DNA of 58,027 nt from Alphaproteobacteria bacterium (GTDB lineage Bacteria > Pseudomonadota > Alphaproteobacteria > Reyranellales > Reyranellaceae), in NCBI GenBank assembly GCA_016870115.1, contig VGCH01000018.1, positions 1 through 58,027 on the forward strand. The letters run 5' to 3'. Under the pieces are notes generated by a model. The model did no database searches. It saw nothing but the letters and a program-made list of their open reading frames with translations, and was not told the DNA's origin. This document shows, piece by piece, positions 28,863 through 39,579 of this stretch (the stretch's first letter is position 1; every line of letters starts with the position of its first letter). Both the position numbers and the translations under genes were made by a program.

Positions 28863-28980
28863 GGTCCCCCCAGGTGCCGCCTGTGGCGATCCTGCCCGCG
28901 ACACGCTATCAATGGGGCAGGATCGCCCGCCCCCCCGCGGTGCGTCCATCTGGAAATGGATCGTGCGAAACGGAGCCGAC

Positions 28981-30630
28981 ATGGCGCGCGAGGCAATGGA
29001 GTACGATGTGGTGATCGTGGGCGCCGGGCCGGCGGGCCTCGCGGCGGCGATCCGGCTGAAGCAGCTCGCGGCCGAGGCGGGCCGGGACGTCTCCGTCTGT
29101 ATCCTGGAAAAGGGCTCCGAGGTCGGCGCCCATATCCTGTCCGGCGCGGTGATGGACCCGATCGCGCTGAACGAACTGATCCCCGACTGGAAGCACAAGG
29201 GGGCACCGCTCGATACGCCGGTGACCGACGATCGCTTCCTGTGGCTGACGCCCAAGCACTCGATCCGGTTTCCCAACTTCACGCTGCCGCCGCTGATGAA
29301 CAATCACGGCAACTACATCGTGAGCCTCGGCAATGTCTGCCGCTGGCTCGGCCAGCAGGCCGAGGCGCTGGGGGTCGAGATCTATCCCGGCTTCGCCGCC
29401 GCCGAGGTGCTGTTCAATGACGACGGCAGCGTGAAGGGCGTCGCTACCGGCGACATGGGCGTCTCGCGGACCGGCGACCAGAAGGACAGCTACACGCCCG
29501 GCATGGAGCTGCACGCCAAGTACACGCTGATCGGCGAGGGCGTGCGCGGCTCGCTCGCCAAACAGCTGATGGTCAAATTCGGCCTGCGCGAGGGCGTCGA
29601 TCCGCAGAAGTTCGGCATCGGGCTGAAGGAGCTCTGGCAGGTCGATCCGGCGCTGCACAAGCCCGGGCTGGTGGTGCACACGCAAGGCTGGCCGCTCGGC
29701 GAGAACGGCGCCCAGGGCGGCTCGTTCATGTACCATTTCGGCGAAAATCTCGTGTCGATCGGCGTGGTCGTGCATCTCGCCTACGACAATCCCTACATCT
29801 CGCCGTTCGACGAGTTCCAGCGCTTCAAGCAGCACCCGCATGTCGCGGAGTACTTCAAGGGCGGCAAGCGGCTGGGCTATGGCGCGCGCGCCATCAACGA
29901 GGGCGGGCTGCAGTCGATTCCGAAGCTGGTGTTTCCGGGCGGCGTGCTGATCGGCTGTTCGGCCGGCTTCGTGAACGTGCCGCGTATCAAGGGCAGCCAC
30001 AACGCCATGAAGAGCGGCATGTTGGCCGCCGAGTCGGCCTTCGCGGCGCTCGGCGCCGAGCGACACCACGACGAGCTCGCCGATTATCCGGCGGCGCTCA
30101 AGGCCTCGTGGGTCTGGAAGGACCTCGACAAGGTGCGCAACGTCAAGCCGTCGCTGCAATGGGGCACCGTGCTGGGCACGCTCTATGGCGGGCTCGATAT
30201 GTGGCTGCACGATCTCGGCATCCGCGTGCCGTGGACGCTGAAGCACCACAAGGCCGATCACGAAGCGCTGCGTCCGGCGAGCGAGTTCAGCCCGATAACC
30301 TATCCGCGCCCCGACGGCGTGCTGAGCTTCGACAAACCCTCCTCGGTGTTCCTCTCGAACACCAACCATGAGGAAGACCAGCCGGTGCATCTGCGGCTGC
30401 GCGATCCCTCGATCCCGATTTCGATCAACCTGCCGCTCTACGACGAACCGGCGCAACGTTACTGCCCGGCCGGCGTCTATGAGGTGGTCGTGGAGGGCGG
30501 CGCGCCGCGCTTCCAGATCAACGCGCAGAACTGCGTGCACTGCAAGACGTGCGATATCAAGGATCCGGCGCAGAACATCGACTGGGCCGTGCCCGAGGGC
30601 GGCGGCGGTCCCAACTATCCCGGCATGTGA
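28981..30630 (+). CDS. Electron transfer flavoprotein-ubiquinone oxidoreductase
   Basis: 549 residues, matching the family. It carries electrons from acyl-CoA dehydrogenases, via ETF, to ubiquinone at the membrane. The N-terminal FAD motif is [15 protein letters not shown] (GxGxxG at residues 14-19). Further blocks are [32 protein letters not shown] and [22 protein letters not shown]. The [4Fe-4S] cysteines are at residues 495, 518, 521 and 524 (CPAGVYE and [10 protein letters not shown]). The start ATG at 28981 has GGAG upstream. It serves the several acyl-CoA dehydrogenases in this window and elsewhere. A TPR protein gene follows 5 bp downstream. Confidence 0.96.
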
Positions 30631-34925: not shown

Positions 34926-35936
34926 TTACCGGACCCGGGGGCCGGGGGGGGAGGGGGCGGCGCGGTGGCGCACCACCAGCAAGAGCGTCAGCAGGATGAC
35001 CGCGCCCGCCTGGTGCCCGGCCGCGATCGGGATCGCGACACCGGTCAGGACAGTTGCGGCTCCCAGCGCCATCTGCGCGAGCGCCATCGCGGCCGCGAGC
35101 GTTGCGTCCAGTCGACGCGCGCGCCAGGCGAGGACCACAACGCCCAGCACCAGGAGCTTGGCAAGCCAGCGATGGATGAATTGCACTGTGGTGCCGTTCT
35201 CGAACAGGTTGATCCAGCCCGGGGCCAGATCGAACATGCCGGGCGGGATCCAATAGCCTGACATGGTGGGGAAGCTCGCGTGTGCGCTGCCGGCGCGCAG
35301 CCCCGCCACGAACGCGCCCCACGTCAGAACCACGAACAGGAGACCGATCAGGGCCGCCGCCTTGGTCGCGATGACGCGGTCAGGACGGATCGCGATGCCG
35401 GGGGAGAGGCGCAGGATCAGGTGGACCGTGTAGGCGTAGAGCACGACCGCGAGGCCCAGATGGGCGGCGAGCCGGTAGTGACTGACCGCCGGACGGTCCA
35501 CCAGCCCGGACGCGACCATCGCCCAGCCGAGCGCGCCTTGCAGCCCGCCCAGCGCAAACAGCGCCAGCAGTCGGGGCTTCAGCCAACCGGGCAACTGGCG
35601 CCGCAACCAGAACCAGGCCAGCGGCAGGGCGAAGGCGAGGCCGATCAGCCGACCCCAAAGCCGGTGCAGATACTCCAGCCAGAAGATTTCCTTGAACTCC
35701 GCGATGCCAATGCCGCGATTGACCATCCGGCCCTGCGGCGAGTTGGCGTACTTCGCGAGCTCGGCTTGCCAGGCGGCCTCGCCGACCGGCGGCAGCCAGC
35801 CGGTCACCGGCCGCCATTCGACCATCGACAGACCCGACTCGGTCAGCCGGGTGAAGCCACCCAGCACGATCATGAGCAATATCATGCCAGCCACGGCGAG
35901 CAGCCAGGCGCGGACGGCGGGAGGGGCCTCAGTCAT
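34926..35936 (-). CDS. ctaA: Heme A synthase (COX15/CtaA)
   Basis: 336 residues from the ATG at 35936, eight transmembrane helices. The COX15-type signature is present: GGFTRLTESGLSMVEWRPVTGWLPP at the N-terminus, then the heme-ligand histidines in LEYLHRLWGRLIG, SHYRLAAHLGLA, FIHRWLAKLL and AGHQAGAVILL. It oxidises the C8 methyl of heme O to give heme A for aa3-type cytochrome oxidase, so the host respires oxygen with heme A. The longer ORF to 36107 is not supported, as it would run into the divergent gene at 36076. The short gap to that gene is 139 bp. Confidence 0.95.
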   Translation of the reverse strand: MTEAPPAVRAWLLAVAGMILLMIVLGGFTRLTESGLSMVEWRPVTGWLPPVGEAAWQAELAKYANSPQGRMVNRGIGIAEFKEIFWLEYLHRLWGRLIGLAFALPLAWFWLRRQLPGWLKPRLLALFALGGLQGALGWAMVASGLVDRPAVSHYRLAAHLGLAVVLYAYTVHLILRLSPGIAIRPDRVIATKAAALIGLLFVVLTWGAFVAGLRAGSAHASFPTMSGYWIPPGMFDLAPGWINLFENGTTVQFIHRWLAKLLVLGVVVLAWRARRLDATLAAAMALAQMALGAATVLTGVAIPIAAGHQAGAVILLTLLLVVRHRAAPSPPGPRVR

Positions 35937-36075: not shown

Positions 36076-39000
36076 ATGACCGACCTAACCCTCGCCCACG
36101 GCCTCACCTTCGCCGATCTCTACAACCGCGCCGGCCTCGTTCGTCTCGACGGCACCTTCGCGACCTGGCTGGCCACCGCGGAGCCCGGTTTGCACGCCCG
36201 CTTCATGGCGGCGCGCGCCGCGCCCGACGCGATGGAGCGCAAGGCGGAGTCGGAGTTGCTGATCGAGCTCGCGCGCCCGCTGGAGGACTTCGTCGCCGGC
36301 CTGTTCGGAGTCGCGGGCGACGCCGCGACGCTGCGCGCCGGCCACACGCGGCTCGCCGCGCTCTGGGACTGCAAGCGGCTCTTTGTGCAACGCCATGTCG
36401 CGCGCGCGCTCAAGCCCGAGCAGGCCGCGGCTCTCGACTCAGCGTCGGTGACCGCCGCCCTGGGCGATAGCGTCGACCTCGCGGGCGCCGTCGGCCGTGA
36501 CGCGCTGGAGGCGGCGGAGCTCGCCTTCGCCGAGGCGGTGCGCGAGCGGTTGGGACCCGAGTTCAAGGTCACCGCGGGCGATGCCGACATCGAGCCGTTC
36601 GTGCGCTATGCCGCCTGGGCGCTGCATCATCCCGAGGGCAAGCGTCGCCACCGCGATGGTCCGCTGTTCAAGCTGCCGCACAAGCTCGACATGGAACGCC
36701 TGGTGCCGATCGAGACCGAGACGGTCGATGGTGTGGTGCGTCTGCGCCTGCCGCGGCCGATGCTGCGGCATCGCGAGGGCTTCGATCTCACCGACGCCGG
36801 TTTCGATCTCGGGCGCGCCCTGGATCACACCCAGTACTGCATCTGGTGCCACAATCAGGGCAAGGACAGCTGCTCCAGCGGCCTGAAAGATCGCAAGACC
36901 GGCGCGTTCCAGAAGTCGGCCTTCGGCGTGACCCTCGCGGGCTGCCCGCTGGAGGAAAAGATTTCGGAGATGAATCTCCTGAAGGGCGAGGGCTTTTCCA
37001 TCGGCGCGCTCGCCATGGCCGCGATCGACAATCCGCTGCTGGCGGCGACCGGTCACCGCATCTGCAACGACTGCATGAAGGCGTGCATCTACCAGAAGCA
37101 GGAACCGGTCGACATCCCGCAGATCGAGACCCGCACGCTCAAGGATGTGCTCGGCCTGCCCTGGGGCTTCGAGATCTACTCGCTGCTGACGCGGTGGAAC
37201 CCGCTCCACCTGCGGCGTCCGCTGCCGCGTCCGGCGACGGGCCGAAGCGTCCTGGTCGTCGGACTGGGACCGGCGGGCTTCAATCTATCGCATCACCTGA
37301 TGAATGACGGTCACGCGGTGGTGGCGATCGATGGTCTCAAGATCGAACCGTTGCCGATCGAACAGTCGGGAGTCGCAGCCGACGGAACGCGGGGCATTTT
37401 CGCGCCGGTGCGCGACATCGCGACCTTGCGCGAGGCGCTGGGCTCGCGCGCGATGGCGGGCTTCGGCGGCGTCGCGGAGTACGGCATCACCGTGCGCTGG
37501 GACAAGAACTACCTCAAGCTGGTGCGGCTCCTGCTGGAGCGACGCTCACAGTTCGCGATGCTGGGCGGCGTGCGCTTCGGCGGCACCGTGACGGCCGACG
37601 GCGCCTTCGCCATGGGCTTCGACCATGTGGCGCTCTGCGCCGGTGCGGGCAAACCCACCGTCCTCGACATGCCGAATGGTCTCGCACGCGGCGTGCGCGC
37701 GGCGTCGGACTTCCTGATGGCGCTGCAGCTCACCGGCGCAGCCAAGACGGACTCGATCGCGAGTTTGCAGATCCGCCTGCCCGTCGTGGTGATCGGCGGC
37801 GGGTTGACGGCGATCGACACCGCGACGGAGTCGCTCGCCTACTATCCCGTGCAGGTCGAGAAGTATCTGGCCCGGCATGAGGCGCTGGTCGCCGATCGCG
37901 GCGAGGCGGCGGTGCGGGCGGCCTGGCGGTCCGAGGAGCGCGAGACCGCCGAGGAGTTTCTGGCGCATGCGCGCGCCCTTCGCGCCGAGCGCGCCGCCGC
38001 GGCGCGCGAACACCGCACCCCGGCGATCGCCGCACTGGTGAATGGCTGGGGCGGCGTGACGATGGTGTATCGCCGCCGCTTGATCGACGCGCCGTCCTAC
38101 ACGCTCAATCACGAGGAAGTGCTGAAGGCGCTGGAAGAGGACATTCGCATCGTCGAGGGCCTGTCGCCCGTGGCGGTCGAGGTCGATGCCGCGGGCGCAG
38201 CCTGCGGGTTGCGGGTGAAGGGCGAACAGGCGGGCGCCGGTCTCGAAACCACGCTGCCCGCCCGCACCGTGCTGGTCGCGGCCGGCACGCAGCCCAATAC
38301 CGTCCTGGCCCGCGAGGACGCCGCGCACGCGACACTCGATGGCAAGTACTTCCAGGCGCTCGATGAGGCGGGCAACCCGGCCACGCCGGAGCGGGTCGCC
38401 AAGCCGGGCGAGGTGCGCGTGCTGATGCATCGCGCGACCGACGGACGGGCCATGTCGTTCTTCGGCGACCTGCATCCCTCCTTCGCCGGCAACGTGGTGA
38501 AGGCGATGGGCGGCGCCAAGCAGGGCTATCCGGTCCTGAGTCGCGTCATGGCCGCGTTGCCCAAGGCAGGCACGACACCTGAGGCGTTGCGCGCGCGCGT
38601 GAACGCCGAATGGCGGGCCCGCGTGGTTCGCGTCGAGCGGCTGACGCCGACCATTGTCGATGTGGTGGTTGAGGCGCCCGCCGCTGCGCGCGGCTTCGAA
38701 CCCGGGCAGTTCTATCGCTTGCAGAACTTCGAGGCGCTCGCACCGCGAGTCGACGGCACGACGCTGGCGATGGAGGGCCTCGCGCTCACCGGGGCCTGGG
38801 TCGACAAGGAAAAGGGCCTGCTGTCGCTGATCGCGCTGGAGATGGGCGGCTCGTCCGATCTCTGCGCGCTCCTCAAGCCCGGCGAACCGGTGATCGTGAT
38901 GGGGCCCACCGGCACGCCAACCGAGATCGAGCCGGGCGAGACGGTCGTGCTCGCGGGCGGTGGGCTCGGCAACGCGGTGCTCTTCTCGATCGGCCAGGCG

Positions 39001-39579
39001 TTCCGCCGCGCCGGCAGCCGCGTGCTCTACTTCGCGGGCTACAAGCGCGTGATGGACCGCTATCGCGTGTCGGAGATCGAAGCCGCCGCCGATGTCGTGG
39101 TTTGGTGCTGCGACGAGGCGCCGGGCTTTGCGCCGGGTCGGCCGCAGGATCGCAGCGTGGTCGCCAACATCGTGGAGGCGATGCGGCTCTATGCGACCGG
39201 TGCGCTCGGACCCGCGACGATCCCGATGTCCGATGCCGACCGGGTGATCGCCATCGGCTCGGACGGCATGATGAACGCTGTTCGGGCGGCCCGGCATGGC
39301 GTGCTGAAGCCGCTGTTGAAGCCCGGCCACGCCGCACTCGGTTCGATCAACTCTCCCATGCAATGCATGATGAAGGAGATCTGCGCGCAGTGCCTGCAGC
39401 TCCATCGCGATCCGGAAACCGGCAAGGAAAGCGTCGTGTTCTCCTGCTTCAACCAGGATCAGGAGCTGGACCGCGTCGATTTCGCCTGCTTGCGCCAGCG
39501 CCTCGGCCAGAACGCCGTGCAGGAGCGCCAGACCGCCGCCTGGATCGACCGGGCGCTGCGGCGCGCCGGAGCGCGCTGA
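36076..39579 (+). CDS. Giant fused Fe-S/FAD/FMN-type oxidoreductase, NfnB-NfnA-like
   Basis: 1,167 residues in one chain. Residues 1-250 are an alpha-helical region with no recognisable family. Residues 255-337 have a cysteine set (C255, C258, C266, C290, C330, C333, C337) like the Fe-S part of GltD/NfnB. From 390 there is a GltD-type flavoprotein with two Rossmann motifs (GLGPAG 396-401; VVVIGGGLTAIDTA near 572). Residues 846-1060 form a ferredoxin-NADP reductase-like FAD/NAD domain (FEPGQFYRLQ; LAGGGLGNAVLF). The C-terminus has a DHODB/PyrK-type [2Fe-2S] set C1097-x5-C1103-x2-C1106-x17-C1124. This is the NfnB plus NfnA architecture fused. No partner genes adjoin it. Pyridine-nucleotide electron transfer or bifurcation is inferred. 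Confidence 0.82.
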   Translation: MTDLTLAHGLTFADLYNRAGLVRLDGTFATWLATAEPGLHARFMAARAAPDAMERKAESELLIELARPLEDFVAGLFGVAGDAATLRAGHTRLAALWDCKRLFVQRHVARALKPEQAAALDSASVTAALGDSVDLAGAVGRDALEAAELAFAEAVRERLGPEFKVTAGDADIEPFVRYAAWALHHPEGKRRHRDGPLFKLPHKLDMERLVPIETETVDGVVRLRLPRPMLRHREGFDLTDAGFDLGRALDHTQYCIWCHNQGKDSCSSGLKDRKTGAFQKSAFGVTLAGCPLEEKISEMNLLKGEGFSIGALAMAAIDNPLLAATGHRICNDCMKACIYQKQEPVDIPQIETRTLKDVLGLPWGFEIYSLLTRWNPLHLRRPLPRPATGRSVLVVGLGPAGFNLSHHLMNDGHAVVAIDGLKIEPLPIEQSGVAADGTRGIFAPVRDIATLREALGSRAMAGFGGVAEYGITVRWDKNYLKLVRLLLERRSQFAMLGGVRFGGTVTADGAFAMGFDHVALCAGAGKPTVLDMPNGLARGVRAASDFLMALQLTGAAKTDSIASLQIRLPVVVIGGGLTAIDTATESLAYYPVQVEKYLARHEALVADRGEAAVRAAWRSEERETAEEFLAHARALRAERAAAAREHRTPAIAALVNGWGGVTMVYRRRLIDAPSYTLNHEEVLKALEEDIRIVEGLSPVAVEVDAAGAACGLRVKGEQAGAGLETTLPARTVLVAAGTQPNTVLAREDAAHATLDGKYFQALDEAGNPATPERVAKPGEVRVLMHRATDGRAMSFFGDLHPSFAGNVVKAMGGAKQGYPVLSRVMAALPKAGTTPEALRARVNAEWRARVVRVERLTPTIVDVVVEAPAAARGFEPGQFYRLQNFEALAPRVDGTTLAMEGLALTGAWVDKEKGLLSLIALEMGGSSDLCALLKPGEPVIVMGPTGTPTEIEPGETVVLAGGGLGNAVLFSIGQAFRRAGSRVLYFAGYKRVMDRYRVSEIEAAADVVVWCCDEAPGFAPGRPQDRSVVANIVEAMRLYATGALGPATIPMSDADRVIAIGSDGMMNAVRAARHGVLKPLLKPGHAALGSINSPMQCMMKEICAQCLQLHRDPETGKESVVFSCFNQDQELDRVDFACLRQRLGQNAVQERQTAAWIDRALRRAGAR

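Follow-up and report, generated by a model that had tools for sequence, protein, structure and literature searches.

What is a single-chain relative of the Nfn electron transfer enzymes for in a bacterium that probably respires? The question is raised by the 58,027-nucleotide window analyzed here, the whole stretch of contig VGCH01000018.1 from an alphaproteobacterium of the Reyranellaceae, in which the gene for a 1,167-residue protein lies beside that for heme A synthase (ctaA). This protein and its homologues are called the fused enzyme below; L-numbers denote loci, and G-numbers denote sampled genomes. The preliminary description of the window had offered a transhydrogenase or a ferredoxin-reducing role as one not yet worked out, and no paper assigning a function to the fused enzyme family was found. 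The present analysis, which cites published papers from excerpts, suggests that the fused enzyme is an NAD(P)H-driven donor that passes low-potential electrons, perhaps by bifurcation, to siroheme sulfite reductase or ferredoxin. This reading is tentative, being possible and somewhat short of probable.

Architecture of the fused enzyme

A single intact reading frame, single copy in the window's genome, encodes a helical N terminus followed by two halves, the first resembling NfnB/GltD and the second NfnA/PyrK (Table 1). This one-chain arrangement, as well as the helical nature of the N terminus, had been proposed from the letters of the window and was borne out by profile comparison, Pfam, and model superposition. 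One Pfam family, Pyr_redox_2, exceeded its cutoff (residues 391 to 757). Residues 463 to 588 match NfnI alpha (large subunit) and residues 463 to 595 match GltD, while residues 849 to 1052 match NfnI beta, the small subunit of Pyrococcus furiosus (5jca_S; E = 4.2e-13). A 60-sequence profile recovered NfnL and NfnS of P. furiosus, both Nfn subunits of Thermotoga maritima, and GltD, all at E = 2e-12 or better. The best named model, NCBIfam NF005128/PRK06567, scored 677.9 bits over residues 7 to 972, below its cutoff of 1072, and the relative at L152 was likewise under the cutoff (817.0 bits).

At least 580 relatives were confirmed in a scan of 84,980 species genomes. The 80 loci kept are 62 to 80% identical and nearly full length, and in each of them, as in the window, one open frame covers at least 99% of the query. 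Judged by sequence, a chance open reading frame (ORF) is therefore ruled out.

Both units were recovered in the AlphaFold model of the whole chain (predicted local distance difference test score [pLDDT], 86.6; predicted template modeling score [pTM], 0.89), and neither motifs nor fold gave any sign that a flavin site has been lost. Residues 846 to 1165 superpose on NfnS (Z = 27.8; root mean square deviation [rmsd], 2.5; 273 residues) and residues 201 to 827 on NfnL (Z = 27.6; rmsd, 2.7; 436 residues); the model also superposes on GltD (Z = 26.2; rmsd, 2.9; 432 residues) and PyrK (Z = 23.8; rmsd, 2.9; 251 residues). Because Z differs by only 1.4, the fold hardly separates NfnL from GltD. The [2Fe-2S] loop (residues 1098 to 1101) was predicted poorly. 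The N-terminal 235 residues, modeled alone, gave a confident structure (pLDDT, 93.2); Foldseek searches of residues 1 to 235 against the PDB returned no match at E ≤ 0.001, and comparison of the domain with 28 chains by VIA gave a best Z of 2.7 and no evidence for a new fold.

Table 1. Coordinates of the fused enzyme gene, its predicted parts, and ctaA in the window
Feature	Position	Strand	Remark
Fused enzyme gene	36076..39579	+	ATG start; 1,167 amino acids; stop included
N-terminal helical domain, residues 1-200	36076..36675	+	AlphaFold models; helices to about residue 191
Predicted ligands of two [4Fe-4S] clusters: C255, C258, C266, C290, C330, C333, C337, E351	36838..37128	+	Kept in 60/60 members
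NfnB/GltD-like FAD and NAD(P)H unit, residues 386-832	37231..38571	+	Pfam, profile alignment, model superposition
R474, equivalent to the Arg that contacts N5 of the bifurcating FAD (Arg187, T. maritima NfnB)	37495..37497	+	60/60
Insert in the NAD(P)H domain, helical, about 60 residues (594-657)	37855..38046	+	Not in the NfnB and GltD compared
NfnA/PyrK-like FAD, NAD(H), and [2Fe-2S] unit, residues 840-1167	38593..39576	+	Profile match, superposition
E900-G-L-A-L-T905, counterpart of the NfnA a-FAD strand ERxPxT	38773..38790	+	Profile alignment
Predicted four-Cys [2Fe-2S] site: C1097, C1103, C1106, C1124	39364..39447	+	59/60 members, one gap
ctaA (heme A synthase), divergent neighbor	34926..35936	-	COX15/CtaA, PF02628, E = 2e-93 (matched ORF, 34929-35936)

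Linkage to sulfate assimilation genes

Neighboring genes were called with our own codon usage gene finder, and the duplicate loci L089, L096, L101, and L103 were dropped before counting. The linkage was first seen as adenosine 5'-phosphosulfate kinase, 3'-phosphoadenosine 5'-phosphosulfate reductase, and siroheme reductase domains among the neighbors of the fused enzyme gene. Sulfate assimilation genes accompany it in nine genomes, the firm set. The longest array, at L152, runs cysI, a siroheme synthase domain protein, cysH, cysD, cysNC, and the fused enzyme gene on one strand, with a last gap of 35 bases. On the same strand as the fused enzyme gene, and upstream of it, are cysI-cysH (L136), cysI and a siroheme synthase domain protein (L156), a siroheme reductase and DUF934 (L153), cysD-cysNC (L134 and L138), and cysD and cysNC separated from it by one gene (L157). 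A convergent cysH-DUF934-siroheme reductase-DUF2849 set stands beside it at L061, and cysI-cysH lies about 6 kb upstream at L078. The L078 locus also holds, between cysI-cysH and the fused enzyme gene (L078:3173-7942), eight consecutive same-strand ORFs of 193 to 210 codons that are 47 to 83% mutually identical, with a ninth, more distant ORF (28 to 34%) after the gene (L078:11498-12058); these form a tandem family.

At L152, L156, and L136 the reductase scores above the cutoff of the NADPH-type CysI hemoprotein model (676.8, 666.6, and 711.0 bits against 457), as does that of G304, which is unlinked to the fused enzyme gene. Those of L024/L155, L060, L075, L154, L153, L061, L151, and L158 pass no model and are nearer to nitrite reductase models; L153, L061, and L151 were kept as sulfur linked through neighboring DUF934, cysH, or DUF2849. 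In four more genomes (L024/L155, L060, L075, and L154) a siroheme reductase of 722 to 735 residues, of sulfite or nitrite type, lies just upstream of the fused enzyme gene, and in three of these a siroheme synthase-like protein lies between (by Pfam in L154 and by similarity in L060 and L075). At L024, L060, and L075 the reductase gene sits between ctaA and the fused enzyme gene, which are direct neighbors elsewhere. CysNC matches at 25 to 33% in L044, L068, and L123 were taken as translation factors and left uncounted.

How far this exceeds chance was assessed in the host's class, taken to be Alphaproteobacteria on the record titles of its nearest relatives, in which 89 of 385 sampled genomes, many of only 1 to 2 Mb, carry the fused enzyme (E ≤ 1e-60). 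Fifty of these 89 positives have the sulfite/nitrite reductase domain PF01077 (23/40 in a panel and 27/49 in the remainder), and in six of the 50 (G010, G110, G113, G122, G163, and G216) it lies within 5 kb of the fused enzyme gene, against 0.27 expected from gene numbers per genome read by eye from tables (Poisson P of about 4e-7, uncorrected for relatedness). The six carry five family codes, two genomes sharing a family, and the reductase of G113 and G216 is of the sulfite-or-nitrite type. A FastTree tree was built from 127 members, without the partial L126, and gave long-branch warnings; on it the sulfur linkage label needs at least six changes, whether the 13 linked rows or the nine firm ones are labeled.

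Electron donors for sulfite reduction

Possible electron sources for assimilatory sulfite reduction were examined in a panel of 80 genomes. For the panel, 40 positives were taken from the 73 with a completeness of 90% or more, and 40 negatives from the 47 with numbers up to G058. Of the seven negatives left out, six were listed as incomplete or contaminated, and G026 was omitted for no particular reason; among the 40 negatives retained, six are <90% complete or >5% contaminated. A siroheme sulfite or nitrite reductase (PF01077) was matched in 47 of these genomes and a CysJ-type domain (PF00667) in 3, so the sulfite reductases of the class would mostly have to be fed otherwise than by CysJ. G110, for example, has a CysI of the NADPH-type hemoprotein model, yet no PF00667 match was found in its genome.

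Several other donors were considered. A thioredoxin reductase-like protein, which from its type we presume to be a ferredoxin-NADP reductase (FNR) and which matched no NCBIfam model above cutoff, occurs in 38/40 positives and 27/40 negatives, and a general replacement of FNR by the fused enzyme was rejected on these counts. The only two of the 40 positives without the presumed FNR, G010 and G110, both have the fused enzyme gene in a cys cluster and no PF00667 match; this pattern is expected if the fused enzyme is the electron source, although two genomes are few. Both FAD_binding_6 matches in the window's genome are monooxygenase-type reductases by sequence inspection, and a motif search for FNR in the siroheme reductase regions of 10 negative genomes, a weak test, found none. 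A link to 2-oxoacid:ferredoxin oxidoreductase was not seen either (PF01558 in 24/40 positives and 25/40 negatives). In Ruegeria pomeroyi, the sulfite reductase SPO2634 is called ferredoxin dependent and was assayed with ferredoxin and the FNR SPO2637, while the Fig. 3 legend of the same paper differs, placing ferredoxin with Sir1 (PMC13188885, excerpts).

In the mechanism that we propose, NAD(P)H electrons would enter the fused enzyme, a flavo-iron-sulfur oxidoreductase that joins an NfnB/GltD-type unit to an NfnA/PyrK-type one, with predicted cofactors, and would leave at low potential via the two predicted [4Fe-4S] clusters. The acceptor would be the siroheme sulfite reductase CysI, reached directly or via ferredoxin, in bacteria that have CysI and lack CysJ. 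Where CysI is absent, the fused enzyme would deliver electrons to some other client of ferredoxin; a single ferredoxin may supply several users, sulfite reductase among them. The roles first suggested for the window protein find partial support: ferredoxin reduction is the better fit and gains a candidate client from the sulfate assimilation genes in nine genomes and the siroheme reductase in four more. Two signatures on the NfnA side are changed (see below).

A number of observations weigh against sulfite reductase as the acceptor. PF01077, which covers nitrite reductases too, is no commoner in positives (23/40) than in negatives (24/40), and it has no match in 17 of the 40 positives, 16 of these 17 genomes being of ≤2 Mb. 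G133, the 99% complete genome with L157, has cysD and cysNC nearby and likewise no PF01077 match. Nitrite could be the substrate of the reductase in four of the 13 linked genomes, at most of the 131 loci the flank examined has no cys neighbor, and the firm cases, found with alphaproteobacterial queries only, are all alphaproteobacterial or of the host's class by record title. The window's genome has the presumed FNR, and its siroheme reductase lies elsewhere, in a cysG-DUF2849-reductase-DUF934 cluster, and is nearer to nitrite reductase models, though below their cutoffs. CysI therefore cannot be the sole client, as PF01077 is lacking from many positives and is equally common in negatives, and a sulfite reductase role in the window's organism is carried over by homology, because its siroheme reductase cluster is separate.

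Conserved residues and electron bifurcation

Whether the fused enzyme could bifurcate electrons depends on residues of both halves, which were counted in 60 members (the 59 others being 31 to 79% identical to the window protein; L126 and L138 were left out of one sequence set, A2). Comparison ORFs were named NfnB or GltD type by whether an NfnA-like ORF adjoined. The seven cysteines and E351 predicted to bind two [4Fe-4S] clusters, and R474, are invariant. E351 aligns, by count along the profile alignment row, with E126 of P. furiosus NfnL. This Glu ligates the proximal cluster, and its replacement by Cys uncoupled the half-reactions in P. furiosus (PMC9503767, excerpts). The ligand set does not discriminate Nfn from GltD, because 6/6 GltD-type ORFs keep this Glu and the seven cysteines.

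R474 aligns with the Arg of YGIPEFRLPK, in a loop one residue shorter in the fused enzyme; the equivalence comes from the profile alignment, MAFFT alone having left a gap there. Shifting the numbering from the P. furiosus row to the T. maritima row makes this residue Arg187 of T. maritima NfnB, which contacts N5 of the bifurcating flavin (PMC6405883, excerpts). The position is Arg in 5/5 NfnB-type ORFs and in the fused enzymes, whereas it is Lys in 7/7 GltD-type ORFs (YGIPxFK).

The NfnA-like half departs from Nfn in two signatures. The [2Fe-2S] Asp of Nfn (DGTGMCGxC), present in 5/5 NfnA-type ORFs, is Cys1097 in 59 of the 60 members, with one gap, and in the ERxPxT strand E is kept in 60/60 and T in 57/60, but R is replaced in all 60. 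On the NADPH side YRR is mostly retained (R666 in 58/60; R or K at 667 in 58/60), and the NAD-side glycines 961 to 963 are present in 57 to 58 of 60. In the 16 members compared, the helix that follows the GxGxxA motif has lost its Arg residues, and the helical insert comes next. Because both the Asp ligand and ERxPxT are changed, the fused enzyme is not classed as Nfn, and Nfn-type exchange cannot be assumed; its residues mark it as related to Nfn without making it a member in the strict sense, and it may still work like one.

The strongest rival is a true electron-bifurcating Nfn, working in either direction and exchanging electrons among NADPH, NAD+, and ferredoxin for general redox balancing. 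The superposition of both halves on NfnL and NfnS, the invariant N5 Arg, the retained proximal cluster Glu, and the wide presence of the gene, genomes without CysI included, all speak for it. The Glu loses its force through the GltD-type ORFs that share it, which are not known to bifurcate; the two altered NfnA-side signatures and the presence in G148 of split NfnA and NfnB in addition to the fused enzyme also count against this rival, which we consider rather unlikely.

Bifurcation could also serve the sulfite reductase reading preferred here. NADPH electrons would then be split at the flavin next to R474: NAD+ would take one, and CysI or its ferredoxin would receive the low-potential electron. 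That an Nfn-like branch in respiring bacteria drives assimilatory sulfite reduction in this manner, replacing CysJ, seems unlikely; if true, a widespread branch not seen in the published surveys consulted would have taken the place of CysJ in such bacteria.

Alternative functions

The heme A synthase neighbor, recognized from the outset, was confirmed (Table 1), and the gap between ctaA and the fused enzyme gene is 139 bases, provided that both start codons are correct. Ferredoxin and ferredoxin reductase serve mitochondrial COX15. By analogy, the fused enzyme could supply reductant to heme A synthase. Within the window's family, ctaA is divergent within 800 bases at all loci except L093, where the contig ends, and beyond that family the same placement recurs at 20 of 88 distinct loci, some of which have short flanks. 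At the divergent loci L123 (1700-3965) and L137 (1668-3906) it is one gene away, in the shared order ctaA, phosphoglycerate kinase, fused enzyme gene. The pairing nevertheless looks like an old synteny of the class and could simply be inherited; no ctaA match was found in the available flanks of loci with betaproteobacterial, acidobacterial, or planctomycete titles, and 296 of the 385 genomes of the class have no fused enzyme match (ctaA was not searched there). A scan of the intergenic gap for sigma-70 promoters found nothing. A heme A role is improbable.

A soluble NADH/NADP+ transhydrogenase without a ferredoxin branch, the other role suggested initially, would make use of the two predicted pyridine nucleotide sites (R666 and glycines 961 to 963). 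It is weakened by PntB, which is encoded in the window's genome and matched (PF02233) in 34/40 positives versus 35/40 negatives, so that the fused enzyme is no stand-in and a replacement of PntAB was rejected. It would also leave the invariant [4Fe-4S] ligands and the cys clusters unexplained, and we regard it as decidedly improbable.

A stand-in for the small subunit of glutamate synthase, suggested by the name of the nearest NCBIfam model and by superposition of GltD structures at Z of 25 to 26, is scarcely credible and already disfavored, as 16/40 positives lack a PF01645 match better than E = 1e-7 (which also led us to reject a glutamate synthase partner), the N5 position is Arg and not Lys, and the window's genome has GltB and GltD-type genes of its own.

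Distribution and gene neighborhood

The record titles of relatives include Reyranella, other Rhodospirillales, Azospirillum, Skermanella, Betaproteobacteria, Gallionella, Nevskia, Acidobacteria, and Planctomycetes; many relatives are metagenome-assembled genomes, whose titles are possibly wrong. In four draft genomes (G343:C407, G232:C10, G020:C1, and G250:C31) the match is split over two frames or flagged with an internal stop, which may reflect gene decay, a faulty assembly, or simply where the match ends. Among the genomes of 1 to 2 Mb, the fused enzyme gene of L125 adjoins an ATP/ADP translocase gene, which would point to an intracellular host. Some genomes of the class have split NfnB- and NfnA-type genes, and the 0.9-Mb genome G170 has a fused Nfn-type gene (L139, L140, L141, L143, and L142 for the split and fused types together).

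In the Betaproteobacteria (L047, L064, L085, and L087), ate, enoyl-CoA hydratase, and pyrD genes lie upstream, and genes for a ferredoxin-like Fe-S protein, nth, and DUF1841 lie downstream, domains having been called on L064 and the other three loci assigned by similarity clustering. A PyrK-like role suggested by this context was dropped, as other lineages do not repeat it. In the window, a gene for electron-transfer-flavoprotein:ubiquinone oxidoreductase (28975-30627) lies about 5 kb from the fused enzyme gene; together with ctaA, it suggests that the host respires.

Comparison with known systems

The question matters beyond this locus. With its N5 Arg conserved in a family that extends from the host's class to genomes titled Acidobacteria, Planctomycetes, and Betaproteobacteria, the fused enzyme makes the near-absence of such enzymes from aerobes directly testable, and an enzyme with a misleading database name gains a testable growth phenotype. 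A published survey of Nfn motifs lists a single aerobe among Nfn carriers and states that, Fix apart, aerobic cells have almost no bifurcating enzymes (PMC6085437, excerpts). As for the database names, NF005128/PRK06567 is the nearest named model with a score under its cutoff, and neither "glutamate synthase beta" nor "2-polyprenylphenol hydroxylase" (the PRK06567 name) is supported for the fused enzyme by this analysis.

With NfnAB the fused enzyme shares both units, seven Cys and one Glu for two [4Fe-4S] clusters, the N5 Arg, and the FAD and pyridine nucleotide motifs. It differs in being one chain in B-A order, with a helical N-terminal domain of 200 residues and an insert of 60, in its all-Cys [2Fe-2S] site, in lacking ERxPxT, and in the adjoining ctaA of many hosts.

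Fused Nfn homologs of "Pattern C," described as uncharacterized, occur in Actinobacteria, Alphaproteobacteria, and Gammaproteobacteria and, compared by domain order only, resemble the fused enzyme in being single chains with the NfnA-like part C-terminal (PMC6405883, excerpts). The B-A domain order is already in print, and the sulfur gene context is new here. The 944-position fused model PRK12779, which we take to be of Pattern C, matches the fused enzyme weakly (83.6 bits against a cutoff of 1519). AadN of Rhodopseudomonas palustris is also a one-chain, alphaproteobacterial, Nfn-like protein, with a genetic role in anaerobic aromatic degradation that ties it to ferredoxin-dependent electron transfer; unlike the fused enzyme, it is a pattern B fusion, both parts of which are at least 51% identical to NfnI, and is linked to benzoyl-CoA reductase (PMC9973337, excerpts).

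In its supposed role, passing NADPH electrons to sulfite reductase, the fused enzyme would resemble CysJ and the combination of FNR and ferredoxin that serves CysI. It differs from CysJ in having no CysJ-type domain by Pfam and from FNR in being far larger, with three predicted Fe-S clusters.

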